Positions 1 through 24,200 of a stretch of DNA of 31,634 bases are shown here, piece by piece. This DNA is from a virus. The notes beneath the pieces are model-generated. The model was not told the origin of the DNA, did no database searches, and saw only the letters and a list, made by a program, of their open reading frames with translations. Every line of letters starts with the position of its first letter. The first letter of the stretch is position 1. Location of the stretch: IMG/VR virus record IMGVR_UViG_3300007960_000104, positions 1 through 31,634 of that record, one strand, 5' to 3'. The position numbers and the translations under genes were made by a program.

Positions 1-1197
1 ATAGGACGGGATTTCTTCCTCGGTGCTACACGGGAGGCCAAGAGCATCGCGGTCGGGATCTCGGCCATGCACGGTCGCGTCACGCACGAAGAACATGCGG
101 GGTGCGCCTTCCTCCGTGTGAGGGATGCCCGCGTTTCCCAGCATGATCCGCATGGTGTCCACGCCTTCGGCGATCCCGTTGAACGCCTTGTGGACCATCC
201 GATACCGCCCGTCGTCGCCCGGAACCGCCGCCCGCTTGCCCCAGCCCTGGAGCCGGTCATTGAGCAGGTCGATCGAGTCCGGTCGGCTGGGGTCGGCCAC
301 GATCCAGCGGATCTCGTACTGGTCGATCAGCGTCCGAATCCACTCCGCCGCCGTGTCGAACTTGAGGTTGCTGCGGTAGAACTCGGCCAGCCGGTACAGG
401 CAGCCATCGGCCACGCCCCAGACCTGAAACACGAACGGGTCGTTCCAGCCCCAGTCCAGAGACCCGAACGCCCACTCGATCTTGGGCAAGTCTTTGTGGT
501 TGATGAGATGCACCGCCGCGTCGTAGTTCTCGTAGACCGCGCCCTCGGCGGATACCCACTTGCCAAGGTACATGCGGGACCGCAGGGGCTCAGGCAGCCG
601 ATTCAGGCGGTTCAGGTAGTCCGGTGTGACGGTCGGGTTGTCCTCGTGTCGGCTGAACAAACGGGTGAAATCCCCCTTGTCCCCGCGCCGCTTGATCCAG
701 TGAAACTCGCTGTCTGGGTTGCAGTCCATCAGGAATTGCTGGAACGGAAGGACATTGTTGCGAAGCGAGCGTTGAAGCTTGTCAGCGTCGAGACTGGATA
801 TCTCGGTCGCCTCCTGCGCATAGATGATGTCCCACTCGGACGAATAGGTGCGCTCGGGGTCTTCCAGCCCCATCGGGACCAGAACCGAGCCATTCGGGTA
901 GTTGTAGGACTTGCGCTGCTCCCGCTTGGCCCCGCGCTTGAGCGGACTGTTGGGCGGCAAGACCTTTTCCTCGAAGGTCACAAGACCAGAGTTTGTCAGT
1001 GAAACGCGGGTCTTGCGGACGATCATCGCCCGGACCCCTGAAACCTGACTCAGCCAGAAGTGAATGTACTCCAGGATCGAACGGGACTTGCCCGTGCCTG
1101 CTGGCCCCTCAAGCAACACCCACGGATCACGGCAGCGGAACAGGTCCGCCGCCGCACCGTAGGGGGTGTATCGCAACTCGGAGGCCGTCTGGATCAC
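1..1197 (-). CDS. terL: Terminase large subunit (TerL), N-terminal 399 residues, runs off left edge
   Basis: ATP-driven DNA packaging motor and headful nuclease. The frame is open from GTG at 1197 to base 1, so the C-terminus is missing. Residues 31-38 are a Walker A loop (GPAGTGKS). Residues 122-134 (EWDIIYAQEATEI) fit Walker B and the catalytic glutamate, and CNP at 160-162 fits a coupling motif. SLDWGWNDP at 247-255 opens the RNase H-like nuclease domain with its first metal-binding Asp (D249). The GTG overlaps the TGA of the upstream coiled-coil gene by four bases, indicating coupled translation. The probable small subunit lies about 4.7 kb upstream in the same operon instead of next door, which is unusual. 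Identification is by motifs and is firm. Confidence 0.95.
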   Translation of the reverse strand, partial: MIQTASELRYTPYGAAADLFRCRDPWVLLEGPAGTGKSRSILEYIHFWLSQVSGVRAMIVRKTRVSLTNSGLVTFEEKVLPPNSPLKRGAKREQRKSYNYPNGSVLVPMGLEDPERTYSSEWDIIYAQEATEISSLDADKLQRSLRNNVLPFQQFLMDCNPDSEFHWIKRRGDKGDFTRLFSRHEDNPTVTPDYLNRLNRLPEPLRSRMYLGKWVSAEGAVYENYDAAVHLINHKDLPKIEWAFGSLDWGWNDPFVFQVWGVADGCLYRLAEFYRSNLKFDTAAEWIRTLIDQYEIRWIVADPSRPDSIDLLNDRLQGWGKRAAVPGDDGRYRMVHKAFNGIAEGVDTMRIMLGNAGIPHTEEGAPRMFFVRDATVHGRDPDRDALGLPCSTEEEIPSY

Positions 1198-1706
1198 TTC
1201 TTGGCCTTGATCGCTTCCTGCTCGGCCTTCCACGACTCATGCTCGGGGTGGGCCGGGTGTGCGGGGTGCTGAGGGTTGATGCCGTCCCCTGAGAACTTCG
1301 GGATCTTCTTCTTGTGGTTCACATCGGTTCTTCCGGCTGACGCTGGGGCGTTGGACGATCGAAGCGGGGCCAGTCGGCTCACCTGATCACAGACTGCCTT
1401 GAACGCCTTGATGCAGCCGCTTTGTTCGGCGTTTTCCGCAGTCAACACCTTCACCTTGCCGTCGAGGTCCGTATTGATCGCTTCGAGTTGCTGGACGCGG
1501 TTGACCGCGTGATCCCGCTCTCGCTGGATTCTGGCTGCGTCCCCGCACTTGGCGAGGGCTTCTTCCAGTTCAGCAATCCGGGCATCCCGGCTCTGGAGTT
1601 CCTGATCCAGTTCGGCCAGTTGGCGGGTGTACCGCTCGATCTCGCTGTTCAGGGCTTCGCAGTCGCAATCGGACTTGGACTCGGGCTTGGTGGTCTTGTT
1701 GGGCAT
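1194..1706 (-). CDS. Coiled-coil protein upstream of TerL
   Basis: 170 residues of unknown function. I chose the ATG at 1706 because AAAAGGA precedes it at good spacing. Residues of roughly 15-105 form a long Glu/Arg/Leu heptad coiled coil with Asp-Cys-Asp-Cys near its start. The C-terminal part is proline- and lysine-rich, with a short His-Pro repeat (NPQHPAHPAHPEHE), and ends in a lysine tail. No family is recognised. Position directly before TerL, with a GTGA overlap, suggests a packaging or virion-assembly partner (scaffold or adaptor), but nothing in the sequence proves it. Confidence 0.8.
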   Translation of the reverse strand: MPNKTTKPESKSDCDCEALNSEIERYTRQLAELDQELQSRDARIAELEEALAKCGDAARIQRERDHAVNRVQQLEAINTDLDGKVKVLTAENAEQSGCIKAFKAVCDQVSRLAPLRSSNAPASAGRTDVNHKKKIPKFSGDGINPQHPAHPAHPEHESWKAEQEAIKAKK

Positions 1707-1717
1707 GGGAATCCTTT

Positions 1718-2308
1718 TCAGTACATGAGGACGAAGGGAAGAAGCGAGGTCGCGGTCCCAACGGCGGTTTCGACTTCGAGGTACTTGCACCCCTGAGCGT
1801 CGAACGCGACATAATGAACGACATCAGCAGCAGACGGCCCGCACAGCTCGGCAAGTTCGCCCCGCGTGTAGTCGTTGGTGATGGCGATTGTGTCCGCGAA
1901 GAACATGCTGGTCGTGAACTGGCCGACATTGGCCGCTGGCTGAGACGCGCCGAGCGTTACCGCCAGATTCAAGAGTTCTTCGGGCAGGTACAGAGCGGGG
2001 GTCTTGGGCTCTGGCACCGACGAGTCAACCGTCCTGGCCTCGTGCCAGCCACGGACGCGAGCGGTCCCAGTCTCGTTGGCCGCGTCAGTCCCGAGGAATC
2101 CGAGCTTGCAAAGCACGGCGTTGTTCGTTTGCGTCAGATCGAACACGAACTTCCCGTTCGCGTTGTCATACGCGGGCTTGACGGCCTTGGGAACAATCGC
2201 ACTAATCGCGTCGAGCGCAGAGTTGGTGCTTGGTGTCAGGGTTGAATCACAAAGCAGGAATTGAGCGGAACCGCTCAGAACTTTCACTGGTTGCAATGAT
2301 CCGGCCAT
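1718..2308 (-). CDS. Putative virion protein, unknown fold
   Basis: 196 residues. ATG at 2308 is preceded by a strong Shine-Dalgarno (AAGGAGG) that begins in the TAA of the fibre gene upstream, so the start is secure. The protein is rich in Ala, Thr and Val with alternating hydrophobic stretches expected for beta structure. It has no signal peptide and no TM segment. It looks like a small structural or tail-accessory protein lying between the fibre gene and the coiled-coil/TerL pair in the late operon. No family is recognised; function is inferred from position only. Confidence 0.8.
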   Translation of the reverse strand: MAGSLQPVKVLSGSAQFLLCDSTLTPSTNSALDAISAIVPKAVKPAYDNANGKFVFDLTQTNNAVLCKLGFLGTDAANETGTARVRGWHEARTVDSSVPEPKTPALYLPEELLNLAVTLGASQPAANVGQFTTSMFFADTIAITNDYTRGELAELCGPSAADVVHYVAFDAQGCKYLEVETAVGTATSLLPFVLMY

Positions 2309-2319
2309 GCCTGGCCTCC

Positions 2320-4065
2320 TTAGTAAATCCGGTTTCGGTTCCGGTATGGGTTTCGTGGTCTGATCGTTGATCCGAGGGCAATGGTGTCTTCACCGCCGCC
2401 CGCCGCCGCGATCGTCGCCGACAAGTTCAGCGTGAACGGGCTGTTTGCGTCGTTGCTTGGGATCGACAGAACCGCCGTGTAAGTGCCGGGCGAAAGCGTG
2501 GCCGCAGCAGCGTTGAATGTCACCGCGAGTTGCAGCGTGCCGTCCGGTGCGACATCCTCATCGTCGTTCCACGAGCCGCTGCCCTTGGCAAAGTAATTGA
2601 CAATGTCGGTGCTGGTGATCGTCGCGGTGTTGAGGTCAAGTTTCAGCGTCGCGTTGCCGATGTTCTCGATCTCGATAGACCGTGCCGCGAGCGTCTCGTT
2701 TGCGACCGTGCCGAAATCGAGCTTGCCGCCCGATGCGACGATGCTGGGCGCGGTGATCGGATTGATGGTGAGTTGGAGGGTGGCAACGCCACGCTGAACC
2801 GCGCCGATGTCGGCGGTTGATTCGAGGAGCGTGCCGTACAAGTCCCATTCGGTGAACTGGTACGCCTCAGGCAGTTCTTCCAACAGCACCGATCCGGTGT
2901 CCGGCGTGTAGTCGCCGTCGCCTGCGTTGCCGACCGAGTTCAGTGATTGATCGTCCGTGAATCCGAGAGCAGTTCCGCCCGCGTAGTCCACGGTGTTTGG
3001 GCCAAGAAAACCCTGCATCGCGGAAGCACCACTGTCATTTGATGGAAAAGTTGTATTGAACGATCTGTTGTGAAAAACGCCCGTACCGTGTCCGGTCGGG
3101 AAGTTACCTACCCGATTAGCGTTCGGTGTGCCAAAGGTGTCGCCCTTGATGTTGAAACCGTCTTCGGATGCGTTGCCGATCCAAAGAATATTGGAACGGG
3201 TGGCCGAAGATGTTCCGCTGTCGTTGTAGCAGAAGTTCACCCTTTGGCCGATGACGGTGTTTTGAGCCCAAATGACATTGTTGGATGAGTTTACGCCGCT
3301 GTCTGCGTATATCTGCACTGCCGGGCTAGTCGATGATCCGGTTCCATGACGCTCTATCGTGTTTCCGAGAAATGCAAGCCCTATCGCTGTGTCGTAGGCA
3401 CCGTTGTAGGTAATCGCCCTGTCGTCACGATCGGCAATCTGCATCTGGTTGAATGATGCCGGAATAATTCCGTCTTGCGTCGGTGCTGGGTTGGAAGCGG
3501 GTTTGTGTTCAAGTAGCAGGTCACCGGAACACCTGCACATTTTGTATGTGCAATCGGATCTTGTAAAACCAGTGAACGCAACACCGTCAAACACATACGC
3601 GACACGACTACTGCTGAACGAAAGCACATCGGCAAAGGTTCCGCTGCACTCGGTGATGTATACGCCCTTTGATCGGTAGCCGAATCCAACCGTCGTGCTG
3701 GTTTGACTGACCGTGCAACCGTCAATCCACAGCCACCGCTCTGTGTTTTCTCCGTCCCAGAAATGCGCCGTGTTCAGTGTGACATTGCGAATGCAAAGGC
3801 GACGGGTCTTGTAAAGCAGGTTTCCAGATGTCTGGATCGTGACCGTTGCAGACGGTGCCGCTTCAACAAAGACCCAGTAATCCGCCGTGGTCACCGCCGG
3901 GGCAGTGATCGTGTGCGTCCCGGTCGTGCATCGAACGATGTTTGCGCCGTCGTCCAGTGCCGCTTTGATCGTCGCGTATGGGCTGGCCTCGGCGGTTGCT
4001 GGGGTTCCGCTAACCACGCCGGTCCCGTCGTTTCCACCGGAATCCACATAGGCATACTGATCCAA
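2320..4065 (-). CDS. Beta-helix fibre protein, distal part downstream of an in-frame amber
   Basis: 581 residues if started at TTG 4065, but that codon has no convincing ribosome site. The frame is open back to 4140, directly after the TAG that ends the preceding gene in the same frame. The first ~60 residues (AYVDSGGNDGTG... ASPYATI) look like the start of a right-handed beta-helix as in pectate-lyase-like phage fibres. The middle has repeated short strands with Asn and Cys ladders. The last ~150 residues contain a HYDIN/choice-of-anchor-D type Ig-like domain (LDFGTVANETLAARSIEIEN, then a SIPSNDANSPF strand pair). The end is Arg/Asn rich. It most likely forms one 860-residue fibre together with the upstream part by stop readthrough, or the gene is broken. 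Host-surface recognition or polysaccharide cleavage is inferred. Confidence 0.75.
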   Translation of the reverse strand: MDQYAYVDSGGNDGTGVVSGTPATAEASPYATIKAALDDGANIVRCTTGTHTITAPAVTTADYWVFVEAAPSATVTIQTSGNLLYKTRRLCIRNVTLNTAHFWDGENTERWLWIDGCTVSQTSTTVGFGYRSKGVYITECSGTFADVLSFSSSRVAYVFDGVAFTGFTRSDCTYKMCRCSGDLLLEHKPASNPAPTQDGIIPASFNQMQIADRDDRAITYNGAYDTAIGLAFLGNTIERHGTGSSTSPAVQIYADSGVNSSNNVIWAQNTVIGQRVNFCYNDSGTSSATRSNILWIGNASEDGFNIKGDTFGTPNANRVGNFPTGHGTGVFHNRSFNTTFPSNDSGASAMQGFLGPNTVDYAGGTALGFTDDQSLNSVGNAGDGDYTPDTGSVLLEELPEAYQFTEWDLYGTLLESTADIGAVQRGVATLQLTINPITAPSIVASGGKLDFGTVANETLAARSIEIENIGNATLKLDLNTATITSTDIVNYFAKGSGSWNDDEDVAPDGTLQLAVTFNAAAATLSPGTYTAVLSIPSNDANSPFTLNLSATIAAAGGGEDTIALGSTIRPRNPYRNRNRIY

Positions 4066-4140
4066 TGCCCCGGTCTTGTTGCAGGTGAACGACAGATCAG
4101 ATCGCAGCAGAATCTCATTGTCTACGCCGGTCGTGTCTGA

Positions 4141-4143
4141 CTA
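4141..4143 (-). other. In-frame amber codon inside the fibre reading frame
   Basis: The context on the minus strand is TTC GAC TAG TCA GAC. The frame is open on both sides: 253 codons before and 606 after. The downstream 25 codons contain no ATG or GTG in frame and no clear ribosome site. A single base change (for example CAG to TAG) would explain it, as would programmed readthrough. Two other ORFs, ending at 19548 and 21226, use TAG as an ordinary-looking terminal stop, which argues against general reassignment of TAG. Confidence 0.85.
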
Positions 4144-4902
4144 GTCGAACACCGACGATGCCGCACCGACATTCGGCTTGACCACCGCGTTGATCGTGAT
4201 GGTTTCGCCCTGCGTGAAACCAGCAATCGGTATGGTGGCCTCGTATGCCTCGCCGTACAGCGAAGTGTTCGCAGACTGCCTGCGGGTCTTGGTCGTCACC
4301 CGCACCGTTTGTTCGTGCGCGCTGGTCCCGCCTGTCGCCGTGAACTCAACACACGCGATGCCGAGATGATGGTACGCCTCGATGCCGACCGTGAAGTCAG
4401 CCGACACCCGCTGGGCCGGAACGCTGGTCTGCAAGTCCCACTGGGCGATGACCTTCGGTGGAGCGAGCGTGCTGTTGTTCGTGACCGATGCCGATGCCAG
4501 CGAGTTCGAGGTCTGGCTGGCCCCGCCGCTGTTCGTGACGATGCCAGCCGCACAGGTCAGCGTCGCCGTGTAGCCGGTCCAGAGCCATCGGTCGGCGTTG
4601 AAACGGATGTCGAGGTCGGACCCGCTCGCGTCCTGATCCTCGCTGCCGTCGTTCGGGTACGGCTTGCGGCGTACCGCGTTCAGCCGGCTGGTGTAGGTCG
4701 CCGACGAGTTCACCGTGCCGTCCGCGTTGTACCCGTTGCCGGTCAGCGTCAGCGTCGCGTCAGCGTCGGCAAGGTTGACGAGTGCGGTCCCTGCCCCGCT
4801 GCCCACATCCCAAGTCGCGCCGGTCGTGAATCCCTCGATGAGCAGGTCTACCGCGCCGCCGTCGAGGTTCGGGATTGTTGCGGTAATATCGCCGGTCGCC
4901 AT
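4141..4902 (-). CDS. Fibre/appendage protein, proximal part ending at amber
   Basis: 253 residues from ATG 4902, chosen over upstream starts because MATGDI begins the folded region and GGGTGG lies just upstream. The protein is beta-rich throughout, with Thr/Ser/Val strands and a pattern (TNNSTLAPPKVIAQW, later FTQGETITINAVV) that I associate with the N-terminal part of long phage appendage proteins that continue into a beta-helix. Here the frame stops at TAG (4143-4141) and then continues open for another 606 codons. So this product is either a complete short form, with a long form made by readthrough, or the first half of an interrupted gene. Confidence 0.8.
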   Translation of the reverse strand: MATGDITATIPNLDGGAVDLLIEGFTTGATWDVGSGAGTALVNLADADATLTLTGNGYNADGTVNSSATYTSRLNAVRRKPYPNDGSEDQDASGSDLDIRFNADRWLWTGYTATLTCAAGIVTNSGGASQTSNSLASASVTNNSTLAPPKVIAQWDLQTSVPAQRVSADFTVGIEAYHHLGIACVEFTATGGTSAHEQTVRVTTKTRRQSANTSLYGEAYEATIPIAGFTQGETITINAVVKPNVGAASSVFD

Positions 4903-4915
4903 CACGCACCACCCT

Positions 4916-5071
4916 TCACTTGGACTTTGCCTTGACCGGCGACGGAACCAGGATCGCCACACCGCCGACGATCAGCGAGATGGCGACGGCCTCTTCGCCC
5001 TTGCCGAGCAGGAGCAGACCGAAGCCGGACGCGACCGACAGAATGGAACCGATGAGTAGTGCCTTGTTCAT
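4916..5071 (-). CDS. Small two-TM membrane protein, holin-like
   Basis: 51 residues from ATG 5071, which overlaps the TGA of the coiled-coil membrane gene by four bases (ATGA). There are two hydrophobic segments, about residues 4-22 and 28-43, separated by a short Gly-Lys-Gly-Glu-Glu turn, followed by a lysine-rich tail (VKAKSK). Size, two-helix hairpin topology, charged tail and neighbours (lipoprotein, coiled-coil/TM protein) are those of a phage holin or lysis accessory protein. There is no sequence signature that proves holin function, and no endolysin is seen beside it. Confidence 0.7.
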   Translation of the reverse strand: MNKALLIGSILSVASGFGLLLLGKGEEAVAISLIVGGVAILVPSPVKAKSK

Positions 5072-5358
5072 TCCGATTTGCCCTTCGTGATGAGATCCCA
5101 GAAAGTGTGAACCGCCAAGCCGATCAACGCCGTCCCGACAATCCACATTGCCCGCCCGATGCGGCCCAGGTCGCGCTCGACTAGGGCGAGACGCGAAGGC
5201 AGGTTTTCGGCTTTCATGTCCGATTTGATGTCTGCGATGTCCTCGCCTTGCTTCTGCTGAGTGACCTTGACACCGGCCATTTCTTCACGGATGCCCGACA
5301 CATTGTCATTGATGCGGGCCAGCAAGCCGATCATCTGTTGCTCTTGTTGGTCGCTCAC
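5068..5358 (-). CDS. Coiled-coil protein with C-terminal TM anchor (XhlA-like)
   Basis: 96 residues from GTG 5358, which overlaps the upstream TGA by four bases (GTGA). Residues 1-66 form an amphipathic helix or coiled coil (ARINDNVSGIREEMAG, then DIADIKSDMK). Residues 70-90 are a single TM helix (MWIVGTALIGLAVHTFWDLI), followed by a short basic tail. This arrangement, coiled coil then C-terminal TM in about 90 residues, is that of hemolysin XhlA-like phage lysis proteins. It sits directly before the holin-like gene. Assignment rests on architecture and context. Confidence 0.75.
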   Translation of the reverse strand: MSDQQEQQMIGLLARINDNVSGIREEMAGVKVTQQKQGEDIADIKSDMKAENLPSRLALVERDLGRIGRAMWIVGTALIGLAVHTFWDLITKGKSE

Positions 5359-5642
5359 ACCGCCCCCACCGTGGCAACGATGAAACGAATCGCCCGCATC
5401 GCGGTACGCTGGAACGCGGCTCGGACCTGCGCCTCGGCCTGCAACGCGGCGGACGCGAGTTCGAGGGCCACACAATCCTTGTACGCCTTCACGGTTTCGT
5501 CGGACCCGCCGTCGAGGACCACCAGCTCGGCGAGCCCAGCGAGTTTCTGGAACCGCCGCTCTACATCGTCGGTGAGGATTTGCCCCTCGGCCTGCCAGTC
5601 GTCTTTGATGGCCTTGAGGAGTTCTTTGGCGCGGTCGCTCAT
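5355..5642 (-). CDS. Small helical protein of the lysis-like cluster, unknown
   Basis: 95 residues from ATG 5642, whose A is the last base of the upstream TGA (TGATG). The sequence is predicted helical, acidic at first, then Ala-rich, with a hydrophobic Arg/Ile end (AMRAIRFIVATVGAV) that could touch a membrane. It has two spaced Lys-Ala-Tyr and Asp-Cys elements but no catalytic pattern. The position between a lipoprotein and an XhlA-like protein suggests a role in lysis or envelope interaction. I do not recognise the family. Confidence 0.7.
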   Translation of the reverse strand: MSDRAKELLKAIKDDWQAEGQILTDDVERRFQKLAGLAELVVLDGGSDETVKAYKDCVALELASAALQAEAQVRAAFQRTAMRAIRFIVATVGAV

Positions 5643-5911
5643 CACTCACCCCCGGACAGCAGGTCGGCGATCAACTGGCCGAACGCCTCACGCCGAGCGT
5701 CGAGGACCGCCTTGCCCGCCTCCGTGACCTCGCCGGCTTCCAGCATGGCCTCGGCACCCAGCTCGCTCATACGGGCCTCGTTTGGCCACGCGGCGGACAG
5801 GGCGGCGAACGCCTGCGATTGGGCCGGGGTCGGCACCTTGCAGCAACCGGTCAAAGAAACAGCCGCTACGCAGGCGGCGACGATGAGGGTGATGCCGAGA
5901 GGGGATTTCAT
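5642..5911 (-). CDS. Small lipoprotein
   Basis: 89 residues from ATG 5911, which overlaps the TerS stop by four bases. A lysine start, the hydrophobic core LGITLIVAACVAAVSL and the lipobox LTGC (lipidated Cys at about 23, followed by another Cys) make a clear type II signal peptide. The mature part of about 65 residues is Ala/Glu-rich and helical. A short phage lipoprotein beside holin-like and XhlA-like genes could be an outer-membrane spanin subunit (Rz1-type), although it lacks the usual proline richness; an exclusion lipoprotein is an alternative. Confidence 0.8.
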   Translation of the reverse strand: MKSPLGITLIVAACVAAVSLTGCCKVPTPAQSQAFAALSAAWPNEARMSELGAEAMLEAGEVTEAGKAVLDARREAFGQLIADLLSGGE

Positions 5912-6495
5912 TGCTTGTTGCCTTTCGTGATGGCATCCACCTCAGCGGCCAACTGCTTCGCAATCTCCGCGTCGGTCGCCACAACCTTGATGAACTGGGT
6001 CTGGGCCTCGCCACCGGCGTTCGCGTACTTCTCGGGCATGTTGCCCTTCAAAGCGAACTCCAGAAGCCGGTCTGAACCGCACTCCTTCGCGCGGCGGAAC
6101 ATCTCATCTTCGAGGACTTCAACCGATAGGCGGCGGGCCAGCGACTCGGCAGCAACGAAGTACTCGTCAGAACGCCACTTGGTCACGGCCTGCGGGGTGA
6201 TGCCAGCGCATTTGGCGGAATGGGCCACCCGGCCAGTCATCGCCAGAGCCCCCAGATACCGTCGCTGGTAGTCCGAGAGCTTTTCGTCCTCCCAGACATT
6301 CCGCTTGCTGGACTTCAAAGACTCGATCAGGTCGATTTTGTACCGGAACGCGGCGTTTTCTTCGATCCAGTCCGCAACCTGCTTGGGGCTGATGTCGCAC
6401 TGCAGCGCGGCAGACCGCAGGTCGTCGCATTGCTCAAAGGCAGCGACCACGCGGTTCATCTCGGGCGTGAAAATGGGGTCTTTGGCCTTGCTCAC
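5908..6495 (-). CDS. terS: Terminase small subunit-like DNA-binding protein
   Basis: 195 residues from GTG 6495, which overlaps the upstream stop by four bases. Two helix-turn-helix-like segments are visible: residues ~25-45 (ALQCDISPKQVADWIEEN) and ~75-105 (YQRRYLGALAMTGRVAHSAK then CAGITPQAVTKWR). Next comes a helical oligomerisation segment, and then LLEFALKGNMPEKYA, a motif typical of phage small terminases (LLxFxLKxxxPExY). The usual role is to recognise phage DNA and load TerL. It is separated from TerL by several tail and lysis genes. The call rests on the motif and operon and is fairly firm. Confidence 0.8.
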   Translation of the reverse strand: MSKAKDPIFTPEMNRVVAAFEQCDDLRSAALQCDISPKQVADWIEENAAFRYKIDLIESLKSSKRNVWEDEKLSDYQRRYLGALAMTGRVAHSAKCAGITPQAVTKWRSDEYFVAAESLARRLSVEVLEDEMFRRAKECGSDRLLEFALKGNMPEKYANAGGEAQTQFIKVVATDAEIAKQLAAEVDAITKGNKQ

Positions 6496-6881
6496 GACAG
6501 AATCGCCTCCGTGCGGATCTCGGTGACCACCCGGATCTTGGCGTTGTCGATGCCGGTCAGCGTGTACTCACACCGGTAGGTCCGACCACCCTTGGGGAAC
6601 GCGGACGCGGCAGGGACCGTGTGGCGGAAGTTGTAGCCGATGCCGTCAATCGTCCAGTACCCGTCCGTCTGGAGCGTCGAGAACACCACATCACCCTTGG
6701 CAAGCGTCGTGGTCCAGACCTCGCTAGGCGGCGTGTCGGCGGTCACATCGAAGACTTTGAGGGCTACGGAGTCTTGGAACGAGGACTGGTTGAGAGCTGA
6801 ACCGTCCGCAGCCACCAGACGGGCAAGGTTCACGGCGGATTCGCCCTCGAAGACAGTGCCAGTTGCTACGCGGCGGCTCAT
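6492..6881 (-). CDS. Beta-rich structural protein, unknown
   Basis: 129 residues from ATG 6881 (ATGA overlap with the upstream stop); its own TGA overlaps the TerS GTG. The sequence alternates polar and hydrophobic residues (VALKVFDVTADTPPSEVW, then YRCEYTLTGIDNAKIRVV) as in immunoglobulin-like or jelly-roll strands. It has no signal peptide or TM segment. Its place directly downstream of three other beta-rich genes suggests a small tail or fibre-attachment protein. Family not recognised. Confidence 0.75.
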   Translation of the reverse strand: MSRRVATGTVFEGESAVNLARLVAADGSALNQSSFQDSVALKVFDVTADTPPSEVWTTTLAKGDVVFSTLQTDGYWTIDGIGYNFRHTVPAASAFPKGGRTYRCEYTLTGIDNAKIRVVTEIRTEAILS

Positions 6882-7450
6882 CGGTCGCCAACCTTCCTGA
6901 CCGTTGCACGGTCAATGCCAGCAGCGGCCACCTGAACAGCAGACACAGCGGCCTCGCCGACCGCAGGGGCAACGCCGAACGGGAACATCAGCACCGTCCG
7001 CAGGTCTCCGGGCGTGGTCCCCGAGCCCGTGCCACCGGGCAGCGTGTCTTGGGTGCTTCCGTTCGTCACAGCTGTTCCAACCGGGATCGCGGCGGTCTCG
7101 TTGTTGGACTCGTCGAAGTAGGTTCCAAACGGGCATTCGATCGTCACCGTGTCGGTGTCGAGGATGATTTCACCCGGAACAGCGGACAAGCCAAGGGCAA
7201 ACAGGTGGTTCGCGGCGTTCGAGTAGGTGGCTTCGAGCGGGGCCGAGTTGTTCTGAGCGTCGAACCCGAGCGATGACAGCACCGGGACCGTGTAGTTCGT
7301 GGCTCCACGGGTGATCGTCAGGGTCGGCAGGCGGTCACCGCGCTGATAGAACGAGGGCGCGTCCCAGTCTCCAGCAGGGGCAGACCAGGCCACGGTCAAG
7401 CCGCGACCACTGGCCAGCACCGAAGCCGAACTGAACGCGGCGACGGCCAT
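6878..7450 (-). CDS. Beta-rich appendage protein, unknown
   Basis: 190 residues from ATG 7450 (TGATG overlap). The N-terminus is mildly hydrophobic (VAAFSSASVLASG) but lacks positive charge for export. The middle has Ig-like strand patterns (GDRLPTLTITRGATNYTVPV) and a segment (SAVPGEIILDTDTVTIECPF) of the kind found in repeat modules of phage fibres, followed by Gly/Thr-rich linkers. The C-terminal 40 residues are Ala/Val-rich. It is probably a virion appendage component made with its neighbours; the exact role is unknown. Confidence 0.75.
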   Translation of the reverse strand: MAVAAFSSASVLASGRGLTVAWSAPAGDWDAPSFYQRGDRLPTLTITRGATNYTVPVLSSLGFDAQNNSAPLEATYSNAANHLFALGLSAVPGEIILDTDTVTIECPFGTYFDESNNETAAIPVGTAVTNGSTQDTLPGGTGSGTTPGDLRTVLMFPFGVAPAVGEAAVSAVQVAAAGIDRATVRKVGDR

Positions 7451-8010
7451 CAGTCGATCCCCACAACAGGGTCAGCGTCCGAATCCAGTGTCAGCGTCCG
7501 CGTCGTGAACGCGGTCGAGCCGTCCGTCCGGTTGATCGTCCAGACCGTGTTCGAGACCGACGACTCGGTGTGAGCCAGGATCAGGAACGCGAGCGTGTGA
7601 ACCGGGGCGGTTGCCTCGACATTGGAAACATTCCGGCCAAGAACCGCGTCGGCAACATCGTTCTTCTTGTTCTCGATGGCGGTCTCGATGACCCCGCGTC
7701 CGGTCGCGTCGATCTGGGCCACATTGACCTCATTCGTCCACTGAACCGGGCTCAGGATCGTGTTGCTCGTGCTGGACTTGCCGACGACCCCGGACATGAC
7801 ACCCGTGTTCTCGCCCGCAGCGACCGTGATCCGGTAGATGCCAGGGGCGTTGGTCGCATCGACCTCGGCAGGGCTGGCCGCGATGGTGGAGAGAACCCCG
7901 TCATTGATGACCCGCAGGGCGTGATTCGCCGAGTCACCCGTGCGGGGCGTGCCATCGTTGGTGTTGATCGCCTGATAGTAGACCGTGACCGCTTCGCCTT
8001 TGACTGGCAT
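7450..8010 (-). CDS. Virion appendage protein, unknown
   Basis: 186 residues from ATG 8010, overlapping the TAA of the beta-helix gene by one base (TAATG). The first ~80 residues are beta-structured (EAVTVYYQAINTNDG, then IYRITVAAGENTG). A central helical stretch follows (QIDATGRGVIETAIENKKND). The end (WTINRTDGSTAFTTRTLTL) resembles the closing beta module found in many phage baseplate or fibre accessory proteins. It sits directly after a beta-helix fibre-like gene in the same operon. The structural role is inferred from sequence texture and context; no family name can be given. Confidence 0.75.
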   Translation of the reverse strand: MPVKGEAVTVYYQAINTNDGTPRTGDSANHALRVINDGVLSTIAASPAEVDATNAPGIYRITVAAGENTGVMSGVVGKSSTSNTILSPVQWTNEVNVAQIDATGRGVIETAIENKKNDVADAVLGRNVSNVEATAPVHTLAFLILAHTESSVSNTVWTINRTDGSTAFTTRTLTLDSDADPVVGID

Positions 8011-9146
8011 TACATGACCCCCAGAATGTTCGGGTTGAGAGCCCCGCCAGCGGCAGCATTGCCAGCCGACTCAATGGCACCGAGATCAATCGTGTTGTCG
8101 CCCCGAGCTGTGTAGGGCAAAGCCACACCAGCGTCGATCATGGGCGATCCTGTCACAGGAGTCAGGTCTGTCCCGCTCGCGACCGTCGCAAGGCCACCCA
8201 CGGGTCCGAAGACAACGCCGGTCTGTGATGCACCGTCGCCCCCGAGAGCAGCCGCGATGATGCCCGTGTAGTCCCACACGCCCGTATCCGTGCCGCCATC
8301 GTCCGCGTCGAACGGGCCGGAAGTGTTCGCGTCGGCCCCGGTCCCGATGAAGGGACGGATCACCATGTCGCGGGCCTGGCTGGTCTCTTCGTCGAAGTTG
8401 AGCCCGAACCCGCCGTTGTCCCACGAGGCGACATTCACAAGCAGGTTGTGGTCGTCCACGCACCAGAAGCCGTGGGAGCCGTTGTTGTAGGCCGTGCAGT
8501 GGATCGCCGAGCAGTTCCCGTCGAGGGTAAAGCCCGTGTTGTTGTTACCGTAGGCGATGCAGCGGACGAAATGCACCCGATCCGACGAAGCCGCGACCGT
8601 GAAGCCGTCCGACACATTGTCATTGCTGATGCAGTGGACGAACAGGCCAGAGGTGGCCGTCGAGATGATGAACCCGTCGTTGTTGTTGTCCTCGGATCGG
8701 CACAGGATCAGCTTGTTCCCGTTCCCGACGACATTGATGCCAACCCCGGTCGAATCCGTCACCGCGCAGCACACGAGGCAGCAGTCGTCCGCATCGACCA
8801 GGATGCCATTTGACCCGTTGCACCCGTTGACCACGAGGCCGAAGACCTGAGACTTGTCGCCCTCGAAGGTGATCGCCACCCCAGAGGTCACAGCCGTCGC
8901 GTCGATGACCGCCCGAGCGTCAGGATCAAAGTCACCGTTCGCCTTCACCACGATGAACTGGCACTGGGACTCACCGGACGCGCAGAGCGTGAGGCCGCTT
9001 GTCCCGGCCAGCGTGTATGAGCCCTCGATGATGAAAACGCGGTCATCGTTGCCGATCGTGGCCCCACCCAACTGCGCGAGAGTCCACGGATCAGCGAACG
9101 ATCCAGCCCCAGAAGTGGCAGTTGGGGACACCCAATAGTCAGCCAT
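8010..9146 (-). CDS. Right-handed beta-helix protein (tailspike/fibre-like)
   Basis: 378 residues. ATG at 9146 is preferred over an upstream TTG at 9170 because GGGGGACGG precedes it and MADYWVSPTA is a normal beta-helix opening. The N-terminal signature (YWVSPTATSGAGSFADPWTLAQL) is the start seen in many pectate-lyase-like parallel beta-helix proteins. The body has about eight coils with Asn/Gly turns (CRSEDNNNDGF, NDNVSDGFTV, YGNNNTGF, NNGSHGF) and stacked cysteines (DDCCLVCC). The C-terminal region (GVALPYTARGDNTIDLGAIE) is the usual closing motif. It probably binds or cuts host surface polysaccharide. First gene of the leftward late operon. Confidence 0.85.
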   Translation of the reverse strand: MADYWVSPTATSGAGSFADPWTLAQLGGATIGNDDRVFIIEGSYTLAGTSGLTLCASGESQCQFIVVKANGDFDPDARAVIDATAVTSGVAITFEGDKSQVFGLVVNGCNGSNGILVDADDCCLVCCAVTDSTGVGINVVGNGNKLILCRSEDNNNDGFIISTATSGLFVHCISNDNVSDGFTVAASSDRVHFVRCIAYGNNNTGFTLDGNCSAIHCTAYNNGSHGFWCVDDHNLLVNVASWDNGGFGLNFDEETSQARDMVIRPFIGTGADANTSGPFDADDGGTDTGVWDYTGIIAAALGGDGASQTGVVFGPVGGLATVASGTDLTPVTGSPMIDAGVALPYTARGDNTIDLGAIESAGNAAAGGALNPNILGVM

Positions 9147-9184
9147 GACCCGTCCCCCAAACGCCCGCAAACGAGCGAATCCGG

Positions 9185-9204
9185 AAAAACGCCGTTTCTG
9201 GCGT
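9185..9204 (-). terminator. Hairpin with T run (possible intrinsic terminator)
   Basis: On the minus strand, ACGCC-agaaac-GGCGT is followed at once by TTTTCC. The opposite strand also has GGTTTT after the stem, so weak bidirectional activity is possible. It lies about 40 bases upstream of the first late gene, where it would stop antisense or readthrough transcription arriving from the integrase side. An operator-type inverted repeat is an alternative. Confidence 0.45.
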
Positions 9205-9421
9205 GGTTTTGGGGCGTTGAGCCGACACTGACTCGTGGGCCAGCATGTTCACTTCTGCGATCATCATAACGCAGACTTATGGCCATGCTTCAAGCCATTT
9301 CCTGATTTTATCGGAGATTGCACAATACTCCGTGTTTGCTCTAGGGATTCATGATATCGGGCGTGGTTGGTGGTTCTGCTGTTGGGCGGTTGCGGGTAGA
9401 CTCGCGGGGCGGAGGTGGATC
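9205..9421. promoter_or_regulatory. Divergent control region between late and integrase operons
   Basis: No gene is seen in this stretch. It separates the leftward late operon from the rightward small ORF plus integrase, and bases ~9250-9360 are clearly more AT-rich than their surroundings. TTGCAC at about 9325 could be a -35 box for rightward transcription, but no good -10 follows at standard spacing. It is the natural place for late and lysogenic promoters and operators; individual sites cannot be assigned with confidence. Confidence 0.35.
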
Positions 9422-9610
9422 ATGCGAGATCGGGATGAAGACGATCGGGCGGAGCAGTTCACGGATACGATCCGCCGGGCGGTGGAGGCGGCGGTTGTGA
9501 CTGACGGGCTGCCGCGAGACCGGGTGTTGGGCTTGTTGGCTGTCGAGATCCAGAGGAACGCACTGCTCCTGCTGTCTGCCCCCGATAACGGCGACGAATC
9601 CACCCGATAA
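9422..9610 (+). CDS. Small acidic helical protein upstream of integrase
   Basis: 62 residues. ATG at 9422 is preceded by a strong ribosome site (GGAGGTGG) with five-base spacing, which is the main reason to call it. The sequence is a charged helical start (MRDRDEDDRAEQFTDTIRRA) followed by a leucine-rich helix (RVLGLLAVEIQRNALLLL). It has no recognisable helix-turn-helix. Position just before the integrase makes an excisionase-like or regulatory partner possible, but this is inference from context. Confidence 0.6.
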   Translation: MRDRDEDDRAEQFTDTIRRAVEAAVVTDGLPRDRVLGLLAVEIQRNALLLLSAPDNGDESTR

Positions 9611-9677
9611 GGTGTGAGCATTCAATAACTTGCGCTGGTTTGTGCGATTTCGGCTGGTCTTTGGTGCTGGTGCGGTC

Positions 9678-10583
9678 ATGGTGCAGGTTGCCATGTGGCT
9701 TGAAAGGGCAATCCCGGACTTCGAGGGCTACCGCGTCCAAGTGCTGCGGCTCGATCCGTACAACTGCCGCAAGGGGTCTTTCGTGATTGAAGCCGCTGCC
9801 GAGCTGATGAACTGGAGATCGACGAACGACCTGACCCCGCCGGCGTGCGTGGAATGGCTGGGCAAGCTCGGGGCTGCCGGGCTGTCCGGGGCCACCATGC
9901 GGAACCGGATGAGCCAGATTCGGGCAATGGGGAAGTGGCTGGTCCAGGTCGGCGAGTGGGATGCGAACCCGCTCCGCGAGGTCCAGACCCCGAAAGTCCG
10001 CATGAGCGACAAGGGGGCCGGGGCTCGGGCATTCACCCGCGATGAGGTCAAGCGGCTGATCGAGGCGGCACGGGTCGCTGAGGGGTCTCACGCTGCGGCT
10101 CGTCGGTTCGGGGCGTGCCGGTCCACCCTGTACCACACGCTGTTTGAGACCGGCCTGAGATACGGCGAGGCGATGGGGCTTCGGGTCTGCGATGTGGACC
10201 TTGCGGGCCGGGTGATCCGGGTCGTGAAGGACAAGGCGGGGCGTGGGGACCGCATCCCGATCGGGCCGGGGACGGCGGCGGTGCTGGCGGCGTGGATCGC
10301 CGATCGCGGTCTGACGGGCCGTGATCCCGTATTCCTGCGGGTCTCACACCGGACGCTGGTTCGGGACATGAAGCGGGCTGGAATCCCCCGTGAGGTCGCT
10401 GGGCAGGCCGGGCAGTGGCATTGTTTCCGCAAAGGCATTGTGACGCACTACTTACGGAACGGTGCGGACCTGAAGACGGTGCAGAAACTGGCTCGGCACG
10501 CGAGCGCGAAGACGACGCTGGATCACTACTACCAGCTCGACGACGGGGCGGTTCGGGCTACGATCGGGTCTGGTGCGTTATGA
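9678..10583 (+). CDS. int: Tyrosine recombinase (phage integrase)
   Basis: 301 residues from ATG 9678; an ATG at 9693 and a TTG at 9630 are alternatives. It joins attP to attB and may also excise. An N-terminal SAM-like core-binding domain (~1-110) precedes the catalytic domain. The catalytic set is visible: Arg161 in ETGLRYGEAMGL, Lys in the KDKAGRGDRIPI hairpin, His248/Arg251 in HCFR, His274 in LARHAS and the Tyr284/285 nucleophile in TTLDHYYQ. A perfect hairpin with T residues follows four bases after the TGA. A folded region with a tRNA-3'-end-like segment, a possible attP, lies 200 bases downstream. Temperate lifestyle follows from this gene. Confidence 0.95.
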   Translation: MVQVAMWLERAIPDFEGYRVQVLRLDPYNCRKGSFVIEAAAELMNWRSTNDLTPPACVEWLGKLGAAGLSGATMRNRMSQIRAMGKWLVQVGEWDANPLREVQTPKVRMSDKGAGARAFTRDEVKRLIEAARVAEGSHAAARRFGACRSTLYHTLFETGLRYGEAMGLRVCDVDLAGRVIRVVKDKAGRGDRIPIGPGTAAVLAAWIADRGLTGRDPVFLRVSHRTLVRDMKRAGIPREVAGQAGQWHCFRKGIVTHYLRNGADLKTVQKLARHASAKTTLDHYYQLDDGAVRATIGSGAL

Positions 10584-12083: not shown

Positions 12084-12415
12084 CCCAGACCCCCAAACCC
12101 ACAATCACCGGGCCGCTGTTTGGCAACGCACGATCCACGGACCCCGAGACCAGTCACAAGGCCGGTCGCGAGGTCGAAGCGTCAGGCAAGGCCACAAGCC
12201 AGCGCGACCGCATCCTCGTGCTCATGTCCCGCTATTCCGGGGCTCACACGGCGGGAGAGATTGCCGCGCTGCTCAAGGACATTGACCGCCACACCGTCAG
12301 CAAGCGACTCCCTGAACTGTCGCGGGCAGGTCTCATCGAGAAGTGGGGCAGCCGCAAATGCACCGCACACGGGACTGAGATGACGACTTGGAGGGTTCGC
12401 CATGCTGACTCCTGA
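12080..12415 (+). CDS. Winged-helix DNA-binding protein
   Basis: 111 residues, ATGA overlap with the preceding gene. The N-terminus has the phrase STDPETSHKAG, seen in small phage winged-helix proteins. Residues ~40-90 (QRDRILVLMSRYSGAHTAGE, AALLKDIDRHTVSKRLPELS, AGLIEKWG) form a MarR-like winged helix with recognition helix HTVSKRLPEL and a wing ending TTWRV. A transcriptional or replication-accessory regulator is likely; its target is not visible. It overlaps the next gene by 14 bases. Confidence 0.8.
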   Translation: MTQTPKPTITGPLFGNARSTDPETSHKAGREVEASGKATSQRDRILVLMSRYSGAHTAGEIAALLKDIDRHTVSKRLPELSRAGLIEKWGSRKCTAHGTEMTTWRVRHADS

Positions 12416-13406
12416 GCAACTGGAAGAACGCCGCAACTGGATCGGCGCGTCTGATATGGCCGCGATCCTGCAACTCTGCCCGTACCGCTCGCCCCGCGAT
12501 GTTTGGCACGAGAAGGTCTATGGGCTCACGCCCGAGGACGACGCGCCCCGCAAGACGGACGCGAAGGACATTGGCTCATGCTTTGAGACTGGATGCCTGG
12601 ACCTTGCGGAAGTGCGGATTGGAAAGAAGATCCAACGGCACTGCCTGACACGCGAGGTTGAAGGAACCAGAATCCGCGTCAACCTTGACGGCTGGCTCTA
12701 TGCCGAGGATGGAGATATCCCCGTCGAGGCCAAGACCGCAGGCATCGTCAATCCGTGGGCCGTCAACCCTGACGACTGGGGCGACGACGGAACAGACCAT
12801 TTCCCGCCGAAGTACATCATCCAGCTTCATTGCCAGATGATGGCGACAGGGGCCAAGTACGGATACCTGACCGCTGTGATCGGCGGGCTTGGGCATCGCC
12901 TTTACCGCTGCGAACGCCAAGACGACATTGTGGAGGTCATCACGAAGGCCGCTGCCGAGTTCTGGGCGTGTGTCGAGGAACGCCGCGAGCCCGAGGGCGA
13001 ACCGCCCAGTCTCGAAACCCTCAAGCGAATCGTCCGCCAGCCCGAGAGCGTTGTTCGCATCCCCCGCGAGGCCATTGGTTCCGTGATCCGCTGGAAGGAA
13101 TGGGCCGCGAACGAACGGGACGCGAAGGCGGAGAAGGAACAGCACCAGTCCGAGTCGATCGCCCTTCTGGGTGACGCTGAGGGCGCGTTGCTGGAGTTCC
13201 ACCAAGACGACTGCATTGCCCTGTCCGCTGCGATGGGCGTTCCGATCGACAAGGCGGGCGAGTACTGCAAGCTGACCTACTTCGCGGACAAGAACGGGCG
13301 GCGAACCCTGCGGCTGCAACGGGCCGACGATGAGTTTCTTGAGGCCGCGAATGATGCGCCGTGCATCGACCTGAGCAAATTGACCCTTTGTGGAGATGAG
13401 AGATGA
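12402..13406 (+). CDS. YqaJ-type viral recombinase (lambda exonuclease-like 5'-3' exonuclease)
   Basis: 334 residues. It should chew dsDNA 5'-3' to expose single strands for the annealing protein encoded next. The N-terminal WIGASDMAAILQLCPYRSP is the usual YqaJ opening. GSCFETGCLD supplies the helix with a conserved Glu. NLDGWL and VEAKT provide the PD-(D/E)xK metal site, and IIQLHCQMMATG is the following conserved helix. The C-terminal third is helical and charged. GGAGGG lies upstream, and the TGA overlaps the RecT-like ATG by four bases: an exonuclease/annealase pair. Firm call. Confidence 0.9.
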   Translation: MLTPEQLEERRNWIGASDMAAILQLCPYRSPRDVWHEKVYGLTPEDDAPRKTDAKDIGSCFETGCLDLAEVRIGKKIQRHCLTREVEGTRIRVNLDGWLYAEDGDIPVEAKTAGIVNPWAVNPDDWGDDGTDHFPPKYIIQLHCQMMATGAKYGYLTAVIGGLGHRLYRCERQDDIVEVITKAAAEFWACVEERREPEGEPPSLETLKRIVRQPESVVRIPREAIGSVIRWKEWAANERDAKAEKEQHQSESIALLGDAEGALLEFHQDDCIALSAAMGVPIDKAGEYCKLTYFADKNGRRTLRLQRADDEFLEAANDAPCIDLSKLTLCGDER

Positions 13407-19277: not shown

Positions 19278-19593
19278 ACTCCCCACACTCCAAGACGCGA
19301 TCTACTGGACCATGCTCGAACTCAAGGACCGAGACGGAACCTGGCCGACGCTCCAGAAGATCGCCGACGCTCTCGACCGCGACAAGGTGAACATCTGGGA
19401 AGGGATGCAGCGACTTCACGCCAAGGGCATCGTCCGCAAGGCAGGCGACGGGACGGCTCGCTGCTACTCGGTCGCACCCGAGTACATGCCGAAGCCGAAA
19501 CCGATCGTGATACCGGTTGAAGGCAGGATCAACGCCCGTGTTTCTGACTACTCGTCCTCGTCGGACTCTGCGGCCTCGTCTTCTTGTTCTTGA
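19264..19593 (+). CDS. Winged-helix protein at the end of the early operon
   Basis: 109 residues from ATG 19264. Residues ~10-70 form a winged helix (DAIYWTMLELKDRDGTWPTL, then QKIADALDRDKVNIWEGMQR and LHAKGIVRKAGDGTARCYSV). The last ~15 residues are Ser/Ala low-complexity (SSSSDSAASSSCS) because the gene runs antisense into the acidic tail of the converging minus-strand gene. A regulator of phage or host transcription is plausible; the target is unknown. Confidence 0.75.
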   Translation: MPTPELPTLQDAIYWTMLELKDRDGTWPTLQKIADALDRDKVNIWEGMQRLHAKGIVRKAGDGTARCYSVAPEYMPKPKPIVIPVEGRINARVSDYSSSSDSAASSSCS

Positions 19594-19775
19594 ATCAACT
19601 CGTGAATCAACCCTTCGACCGTGAGTGCGTTGCCTCGGCTAGTGATGTAGGTCTGAGTGTTTCCCTCATCATCGACATAGGTCGTGATGAGCAGCGCAGC
19701 ATCGCAGTGTTCAGCCGCGATGCTGATAGACCGCTCAAACTGCTGGTCTCGATGATCCATAGAACCGCCCCCCAT
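19548..19775 (-). CDS. Small acidic protein, converges with the early operon
   Basis: 75 residues from ATG 19775, whose T is shared with the upstream TGA (TGATG); ATG 19760 after GGGGGGCGG is an alternative. It has an N-terminal helix (QQFERSISIAAEHCDAALLI) and a beta hairpin (TTYVDDEGNTQTYIT). The extreme acidic tail (EQEDEAAESDEDE) ends in TAG. The last 46 bases overlap, antisense, the end of the plus-strand winged-helix gene. Function unknown; the acidic end could mimic DNA, but this is speculation. Confidence 0.6.
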   Translation of the reverse strand: MGGGSMDHRDQQFERSISIAAEHCDAALLITTYVDDEGNTQTYITSRGNALTVEGLIHELIQEQEDEAAESDEDE

Positions 19776-21004: not shown

Positions 21005-21226
21005 ATGAGCAATCAAAACGGAGACTTCACTTTTCAGGTTGGGTGGCGAATCCTCATTGTCGTTCCTATGTGGCTGATCTTTCTTTTTCCCTTGGCCTAC
21101 TTATTCAACCTGTTCGGATGGGACGGGGAAACGGCGGAGCGGTACTGCAAGGGTCTCGCGCTAGTGCCTGGTGTCGCTTTGAGTGCTGCGCTTCTGGCAT
21201 CCTATTTCAGCAGCGGCGATTTTTAG
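21005..21226 (+). CDS. Lone small two-TM membrane ORF
   Basis: 73 residues from ATG 21005. Two TM segments: WRILIVVPMWLIFLFPLAYL and GLALVPGVALSAALLASYF. The ORF stands alone on the plus strand between minus-strand operons. Its TAG overlaps the TAA of the giant protein gene by two bases, tail to tail. TM hairpin texture and a G-rich start region favour a real gene, but there is no homology evidence. It could be a superinfection-exclusion protein expressed from a prophage. Confidence 0.5.
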   Translation: MSNQNGDFTFQVGWRILIVVPMWLIFLFPLAYLFNLFGWDGETAERYCKGLALVPGVALSAALLASYFSSGDF

Positions 21227-24200
21227 AGCGGGTTCGGACGGCGGCTTGATCTTTCCTTTTCAGCCTTTTCCATGTCCCTTCTGATTTTTGAGTGCGATGC
21301 GTAAAGCGGGTTCAAGCCAACCGCCGCGAGTGCTGCGCTCGCAGATTTTTCCATGCTCCGCAAAAACTTTCCTGTTTCAAAATCGTCGTCTTTGTCAAAG
21401 ATGTCAATGATCTCGTCGCCCATGCCAAGCACACCCCTGAACGATTCGTTGATAATTGAAAGTGCTGGAGTGTCAACGCCGATACTTCCAAATCTCCGGT
21501 TGAATATGCCGTCAACGATCTTTGGTGTCACGAACGGATCAATGGTTGCGCCTGCCAAGTCAGACAGGATTTTTCCTGGCGCGTACTCGTCAGGCATCAT
21601 GGCGGCAAAAACTCGTTCCCAAAACTCATCCCACTCACCAGACAAAAGGGTTGCAACAATTACGGTTGCCGCATCCCACGCACCATCAATGACAATCGCG
21701 GAGATCGCGATGTTTATGACCTCGGCTGCAACAGCTCTGGCTCCGTCAGTCTTGGACTTCTGGAACCCGGTGTAGACCATGTTCCTTGCCCTTGAAACCT
21801 CTGATGTAAAGAGGAATAAAGGAGAAATGGCCGTGTTTCGTGCGGCATTCCCGATGTAGGATGAGTCAATAGGGCTTGGGGTCGCCTGAGTCTGTCGCAT
21901 AATGTTCGCTGCGTTCCATGCGACCCACTTCAGCTTCTGGTCGTCAGACCATTCTGGATGCTCTTGATTGACCTGCGCTTCTGATGCGGCCCAAGCGATC
22001 CGTGCAAGCACAGAGTCAAACTTGTTCATGATCTCAAGACTCTTAGTGGACGCTGTTCGCAGTTCCCGGAATGCTGCCGATATGTCTCCAACCTTGAGGT
22101 TGTTGATAGCTCTGCCGATTGCATCTATAGCCCGGTCGTCAGTTGAATCTGCTGTCTGTATTTCCAGTGCGGACGAAAACCGTCCTGTCATATTTCCGAT
22201 GTACCGTTCCCAGAAGAACCCAGAATTACTCACCATGTGCAGCATTGAAACCTTGTGTGCATTCGCAATGCCAGCGGCCCAATACCTCGGGCTTACAACC
22301 GCAGCGAACCTTGTCCCGCCAGAAATCTGGCGAAGCCATGTGCCTGGCTGGGTCAGTAGCCCAATCGAAGCACTCGTGTTGATCTCGCTGGCAACCCTTG
22401 CTCCGGCTCTTGCAATCCTCCCTCCGGTTGCAGCTGAATTGTCGCCGCGAGACATGTGGGCAATGTTGGTCTTCATTGCTTCAAGGCGATTCAGACCGTG
22501 CTTTGCGATAATCTCTCGCTGAACCTCTGGGTGCAAAAGCACCATCGAGACATTTCGGATCGGTTCGGCTAGGTGTGTGATCTTGGCAATGTTGTCAAGG
22601 TGATTGTTCAGTATCTCGGTGAAGTCGCCAATTACAATCGGAGCAGACTTTGGCCCAAACGAGTTGTCACGATCTTTGGTAAGTCCAAGGTTTTCGAGAT
22701 ATCGATTGATTGCTCCATCCCGACCAACTTCCGGGAGTCCAGCGTTTTCTGCCTGATCCAAGGCACGAATCCGAGGGAAATACCCTGGAACGATCTCTGG
22801 CTCCTGTCCTTTGAGTTTCTTGATAACCCGGTACGCCGGTCCTCGACGCTTCTCCATCAAGTCCTTGCCTCGATCAACAAACTCCTTTTGCTGATCGGTC
22901 AACTTGCTGATAATCGCATTGATCTCTGAGTCTGTGATCTTGTGGTTTTTGCTTTTGCGATGCTTGAACTGCGCCTGTGTGCCAGCTAAAAAAGCTGCTC
23001 GTGTTTGGCTGTCCATCGCGTACAGGTGCATTGCCTCGCCGACAGTGATTTCAACTTGCTCGCCGCCAATTTGGACACTCATCATCTGTGTGCTGGCCTT
23101 ACCAGACCCGCGCCTTGTTTTGGATTCAAGGTCTGTATAGGACTTGTACCCAGCATCTTTCGCGCTTTTGGCGTGCGAGTTCGCATCATCCTGCCTCTGC
23201 AGCAGAAATCCGTCCTCACCGTTTGCGACACTCGTGCCGTCGAACCCAAAAATCAACTGCTCAAGTATCGCGTCCCCGTCTGACTTACCCTCGACTATTC
23301 GGATCAAGAGTCTGGTGTCACTGAGCAATGTGCCAGCAGTTCTCCGAACAGACATCTGGTCAGGCGATGCGCCGTCTGCCGACTGCTTTGCGGTCCGCTT
23401 GGAGTTGCCGATGTTTTCAACAACTCTTTTGGCAAACTCATCCCTTGTCAATTTCAGGTTGGCCCCATACGCGATCCGCTGGGCGCGGTAGTAGGCCACT
23501 TCCTCGGCGATCTCACGCTCGATGCGGTTCAGGGCTTCCGCAGCGGCCACGATGTCGTTGGTCTGGATGCCTTGGACAGTCTTGCCCGTCGTCGATCGAG
23601 CGGCCTGACGGGGGCTGACATACGCCTCGCGGCTGTCCTTGAAGGTCTGGATATGCGGCTGGGCCTCACGCAGCATCTCCCGCACCTTCTCGCGGGTCTC
23701 GTTGTCCAGTTTCTTGAGTGCCTTCGGCCCGGCCAGTTGGCGGATCTGATTGATCGCGTGCCGCGCGTCGTACCGGGACAGTTCCCGCCTCATCTTGTCG
23801 ATGCTGTCGGCGAGGTTGCCAAGCGTCTTCGCGTTCATGAGGTCGGGGATGAACCGTCCGTGCAGACTGGCGGGCAGTTCGGCCTCGATCATGCGGCGGA
23901 GCTGCTTGCGGATACCCTCGATCCGATCCTCACGGGCCTTGTCGCGGAGTTTCTGGGCTTCCTTGACCGCCTGACGCATCGCGGGCAGTGTCGCCTTGAT
24001 GGACTTCACCCCGTCGCGGAATGCCTTGCGAGCGGTCTGCTCGTCCCGCTTCAACTGCTTGCGGAGTTCCTTGGCCTCGGTGGACTTGGTTTCCTCGTCC
24101 CCGACGATCTGACGGACCACACGGCTCGCGTCGGCCAGCCCGGTGATCTGACGGACCCGCACCTTGACCGATCGGCGGTCGGGCTCCACGGTCATGCTCG

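Follow-up and report, generated by a model that had tools for sequence, protein, structure and literature searches.

An in-frame amber codon in a putative appendage gene

When a phage gene reaches a single stop codon and then continues in frame for hundreds of codons, the stop might serve to produce two proteins or might simply be a defect. This question is raised by a locus on the minus strand at positions 2320-4902 of the window, the 31,634-base virus record from a temperate tailed phage. The gene begins with an ATG at 4902 and runs for 253 sense codons (4902-4144) to a TAG at 4143-4141. Past the TAG, 606 in-frame codons (4140-2323) are open up to a TAA at 2322-2320, the normal gene end. If uninterrupted, this single frame would comprise 860 codons and encode a protein that resembles a fibre or spike.

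An open run of 606 codons is not expected by chance (P ~9e-7 under a first-order Markov model of the same DNA). In the downstream half, third-position GC content is 0.66 in the reading frame of the fibre, compared with 0.52 and 0.51 in the other frames. Because the value is raised only in this frame, the downstream half looks coding. The first in-frame starts beyond the TAG are a TTG at codon 280 and a GTG at codon 286, with no ATG before codon 455, and a clear ribosome-binding site was found at none of the three. These findings agree with the original prediction, made from the sequence alone, of a 253-codon gene followed in frame by 606 open codons that lack a nearby start.

We also considered a restart of translation downstream of the TAG but discarded it, because the nearest in-frame TTG and GTG codons have no ribosome site. 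The predicted product of a restart also argues against it, since with translation resumed at these codons the Ig-like domain would lack its last strand.

A near-identical contig with a serine codon

A scan of IMG/VR with either half of the gene recovered one contig, IMGVR_UViG_3300007538_004614 (14,264 bases), in which codon 254 is TCG (serine) and the 860-amino acid frame is open throughout. A third contig was sought in IMG/VR by a pattern scan that left the middle base of this codon free, and none was found. The alignment of the recovered contig with the window covers window bases 1-10235 (10,235 bases) at 99.83% identity, and includes 15 substitutions and one 2-base indel. Eleven of the substitutions are synonymous and three are missense (D/E in TerL, I/T in the fibre and A/S in the integrase), leaving the amber change as the one nonsense difference. 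So high a synonymous count would be improbable without selection (P ~1e-4), suggesting that the differences between the two strains are largely true variation under protein-level selection, and that this includes the downstream half of the fibre gene. There, four of five substitutions are synonymous, which is consistent with a half that is normally translated.

The strain differences cluster at window positions 193-316 and 2722-2761, where nearly all are synonymous, in a pattern like that left by recombination with a third strain.

Diverged relatives across the join

More distant relatives were found with protein searches. A DNA-level search of annotated phages with the whole gene gave no match, nor did the two halves when searched separately at E 1e-5. 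With a looser limit, the uninterrupted protein matched hypothetical proteins of the Synechococcus phages Ssp-JY42 and Yong-M4-211 (XAI96955 / UPT53193) and of Zobellviridae phage T5S1-k141_653015 (XPQ49594). An alignment of these annotated-phage homologues then identified eleven more IMG/VR contigs. No relative was found in a bacterial genome collection and no match to the protein among PDB sequences, and matches to plasmids are limited to the C-terminal Ig-like domain.

The homologues are ~21-32% identical to the query and were confirmed through their open frames and by pairwise alignment. There are 13 when Ssp-JY42 and Yong-M4-211, which are identical at the site, are counted once and added to the Zobellviridae phage and the eleven contigs. 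All 13 carry both sides of the join in one open frame, which answers the proposal that homologues of the fused 860-residue product be inspected at this point. For example, the alignment with the Synechococcus protein spans the join unbroken (GAASSVFDSSDTT against GAAASVIDSADSS). The residue at the amber position is serine in five homologues, threonine in four, leucine in three and glycine in one. When the near-identical contig is included, a stop at codon 254 is present in 0 of 14 relatives.

The original prediction had named as its contrary case that the two halves are always distinct proteins, each with its own start. This was not seen in any of the 14 relatives: the reading frame is continuous in the near-identical contig and in every diverged homologue, and the alignments cross the join. 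Thus, we regard the existence of two separate genes as next to impossible.

By sequence, the proteins from the Synechococcus phages and the Zobellviridae phage belong to the same family as the window's product, from which they differ in being uninterrupted, only 26-32% identical, and devoid of the C-terminal Hydin/ASH-like Ig domain described below.

Predicted architecture of the protein

An AlphaFold2 model built on an alignment of 12 relatives is of moderate confidence, with a mean pLDDT of 57.5 and a pTM of 0.66, whereas prediction from the single sequence gave an unusable structure (pLDDT 36). By VIA-align, the N-terminal part of the former model matches Ig/FnIII-like domains. Codons 1-253 (4902-4144) would therefore encode the proximal part of the protein, with predicted Ig/FnIII-like beta-sandwich domains of which the second, at residues ~148-279, is truncated. 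The amber at codon 254 probably falls inside this second domain, ahead of its last strand (residues 270-273), and so the stop is not predicted to lie at a domain boundary.

Codons 255-859/860 (4140-2323) would supply that last strand, followed by a predicted right-handed beta-helix. Residues 281-615 match the beta-helix of rhamnogalacturonan lyase (PDB 5OLQ) with a Z of 10.3 and an rmsd of 5.1 A over 263 residues, and pLDDT in this region is mostly 50-90. The likeness to the lyase (PDB 5OLQ, 5OLR) is one of fold, whereas sequence identity is 10% and there is no sign of a common activity. Foldseek with the whole model returned weak matches, mainly to immunoglobulins.

Residues ~727-830 (window 2724-2413, minus strand) show weak similarity to Ig domains of the Hydin/ASH-like type (DUF1573, PF22544), indicating a possible C-terminal domain of this kind. 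This domain is missing in the two annotated relatives that were aligned, and none of the 11 relatives on viral contigs matches DUF1573 or PF22544.

Judging from its predicted fold and genomic position, the gene probably encodes one continuous appendage protein, either a fibre or a spike, in which Ig-like domains precede a beta-helix. The single reading frame of the relatives and the model both favour the earlier view that the upstream half is the proximal part, and the downstream half the beta-helix and C-terminal part, of one long phage appendage protein. For the main part of the protein neither Pfam nor PHROGs gave a family, and the analysis adds an appendage family of Ig-like domains and a beta-helix that both collections lack.

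Programmed readthrough

The 606-codon in-frame continuation without a start of its own is the arrangement expected if some of the ribosomes decoded the TAG as an amino acid and so made a long fibre alongside a short one. The minor coat protein A1 of phage Q-beta is produced in this manner by readthrough of a leaky stop, and the product is needed. The two genes are alike in that the reading frame goes on past a stop. However, the stop in Q-beta is leaky, whereas the one examined here is not kept even between strains, as it is absent from the 99.83%-identical contig and from all 13 diverged homologues.

The location of the codon also argues against readthrough. A stop within a predicted Ig-like domain, rather than at its boundary, would be a bad place from which to generate a designed short form, because this form would end in an incomplete domain and carry no beta-helix. 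No notable RNA structure was seen 3' of the TAG: in the 103 bases that begin with the stop, predicted folding is no more stable than in shuffled versions (MFE z-score 0.31, in a test that covers structures other than pseudoknots). Bacterial readthrough cases are not known to need RNA structure. The base that follows the TAG is U, which is not known as a leaky context in E. coli. Given these observations, the suggestion that programmed readthrough yields short and long fibres was not supported, and we consider it exceedingly improbable.

Suppression or recoding of TAG

Another possibility is that a phage or host suppressor tRNA decodes the amber codon, or that TAG is read as an amino acid throughout the genome. 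In favour of this, TAG is rare as a stop codon in the window. Over 25 gene calls there are 18 TGA, six TAA and one TAG, the last being the amber in the fibre gene. However, this scarcity could result simply from the ~60% GC content of the DNA, and two small ORFs, at 19548-19775 (minus strand) and 21005-21226 (plus strand), do seem to terminate at TAG. These fit the two TAG-ended ORFs from which it had been argued that the code is not reassigned.

The analysis supports this view. No other gene call in the window contains an in-frame TAG, whereas recoded phages have many. Crass-like phages with genetic code 15, in which TAG is translated as Gln, carry the codon repeatedly in numerous genes (PMC9523058). 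Such phages resemble the present case in having TAG within a structural gene but differ in the number of genes affected, which here is one. An amber suppressor tRNA was also sought, as had been proposed, in the window and in two neighbouring contigs. No tRNA gene of any kind is present in the window, IMGVR_UViG_3300007538_004614 or IMGVR_UViG_3300007960_003989, which together represent an incomplete genome. With the stop absent from relatives and no suppressor in the sequence examined, dependence of the gene on suppression or recoding is very unlikely.

A probable nonsense change private to one contig

The explanation we favour, with a probability of roughly 0.93, is a normal continuous 860-codon appendage gene in which, in this contig alone, a one-base difference creates an amber codon, whether through a recent mutation in nature or through an error in the consensus. 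The absence of the TAG from a near-identical phage and from thirteen distant relatives makes an ordinary mutation or sequencing error its most likely origin. In the record for the window, a single base change would have converted the serine codon to TAG. The options first offered for this site included a recent one-base mutation, and the comparison with the TCG contig upholds the single-base change, although an error in the consensus from the metagenome fits it as well as a natural mutation does, and the two are about equally likely.

With a real allele, translation would stop after 253 residues, and the resulting fragment would be missing the last strand of the second Ig-like domain and the entire beta-helix. 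Without amber suppression by the host, the appendage would then presumably be absent or inactive. It is also conceivable that a real amber allele is kept in part of the population alongside an amber-suppressing host, such that the beta-helix fibre is shown or hidden according to host tRNAs as a natural conditional allele, but we assign this variant a very low probability.

The closest precedent, if the amber is real, would be the broken side tail fibre gene (stf) of lambda PaPa, which is split into ORF401 and ORF314 (Hendrix and Duda 1992, as described in PMC9659904). According to that description, one small mutation likewise made two ORFs of a fibre gene that is whole in relatives. However, the lambda mutation is a real frameshift in a laboratory strain, whereas the present case is a nonsense codon read in one metagenome contig.

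Diversity-generating and phase-variation mechanisms were considered briefly. The strains differ at the join by one base, and no element of either kind was observed.

Although the interrupted gene in itself matters little, it illustrates how a stop that appears programmed in a single metagenome contig can dissolve against one near-identical contig.

Further strain differences

Three of the four non-synonymous strain differences are isolated G/T (C/A) transversions, at window positions 859, 4142 and 10113. These changes (D/E in TerL, the amber, and A/S in the integrase) are each of the G:C to T:A type, which is the class produced by oxidative DNA damage. As a sign of such damage, three cases prove nothing.

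The near-identical contig has a defect of its own. It lacks (near its position 10037) two bases that are present at window positions 6007-6008, close to the 3' end of the terminase small subunit gene (5908-6495, minus strand). In the window, this gene and the following one overlap at ATGA, and thus the version in the contig looks frameshifted, by either mutation or assembly error. With this deletion and the amber in the window, the material shows roughly one damaging difference for every 10 kb of each contig. Like the transversions, this rate bears on the choice between a real allele and a consensus error but does not decide it.

Genome context

Other recognizable genes in the window include those for the terminase large subunit (1-1233, minus strand), an integrase (9630-10583, plus strand) and a RecE-like exonuclease (12402-13406, plus strand). 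Base 1 of the window adjoins the start (1-60) of IMGVR_UViG_3300007960_003989 inside the terminase gene, with only a 3-base overlap, suggesting that both may be adjacent fragments from a single assembly. Another beta-helix-like protein, 386 residues long (8010-9170, minus strand), has no PHROG match and is perhaps also a spike. Finally, a gene of 2695 codons (21223-29310, minus strand) perhaps encodes a large internal virion protein.
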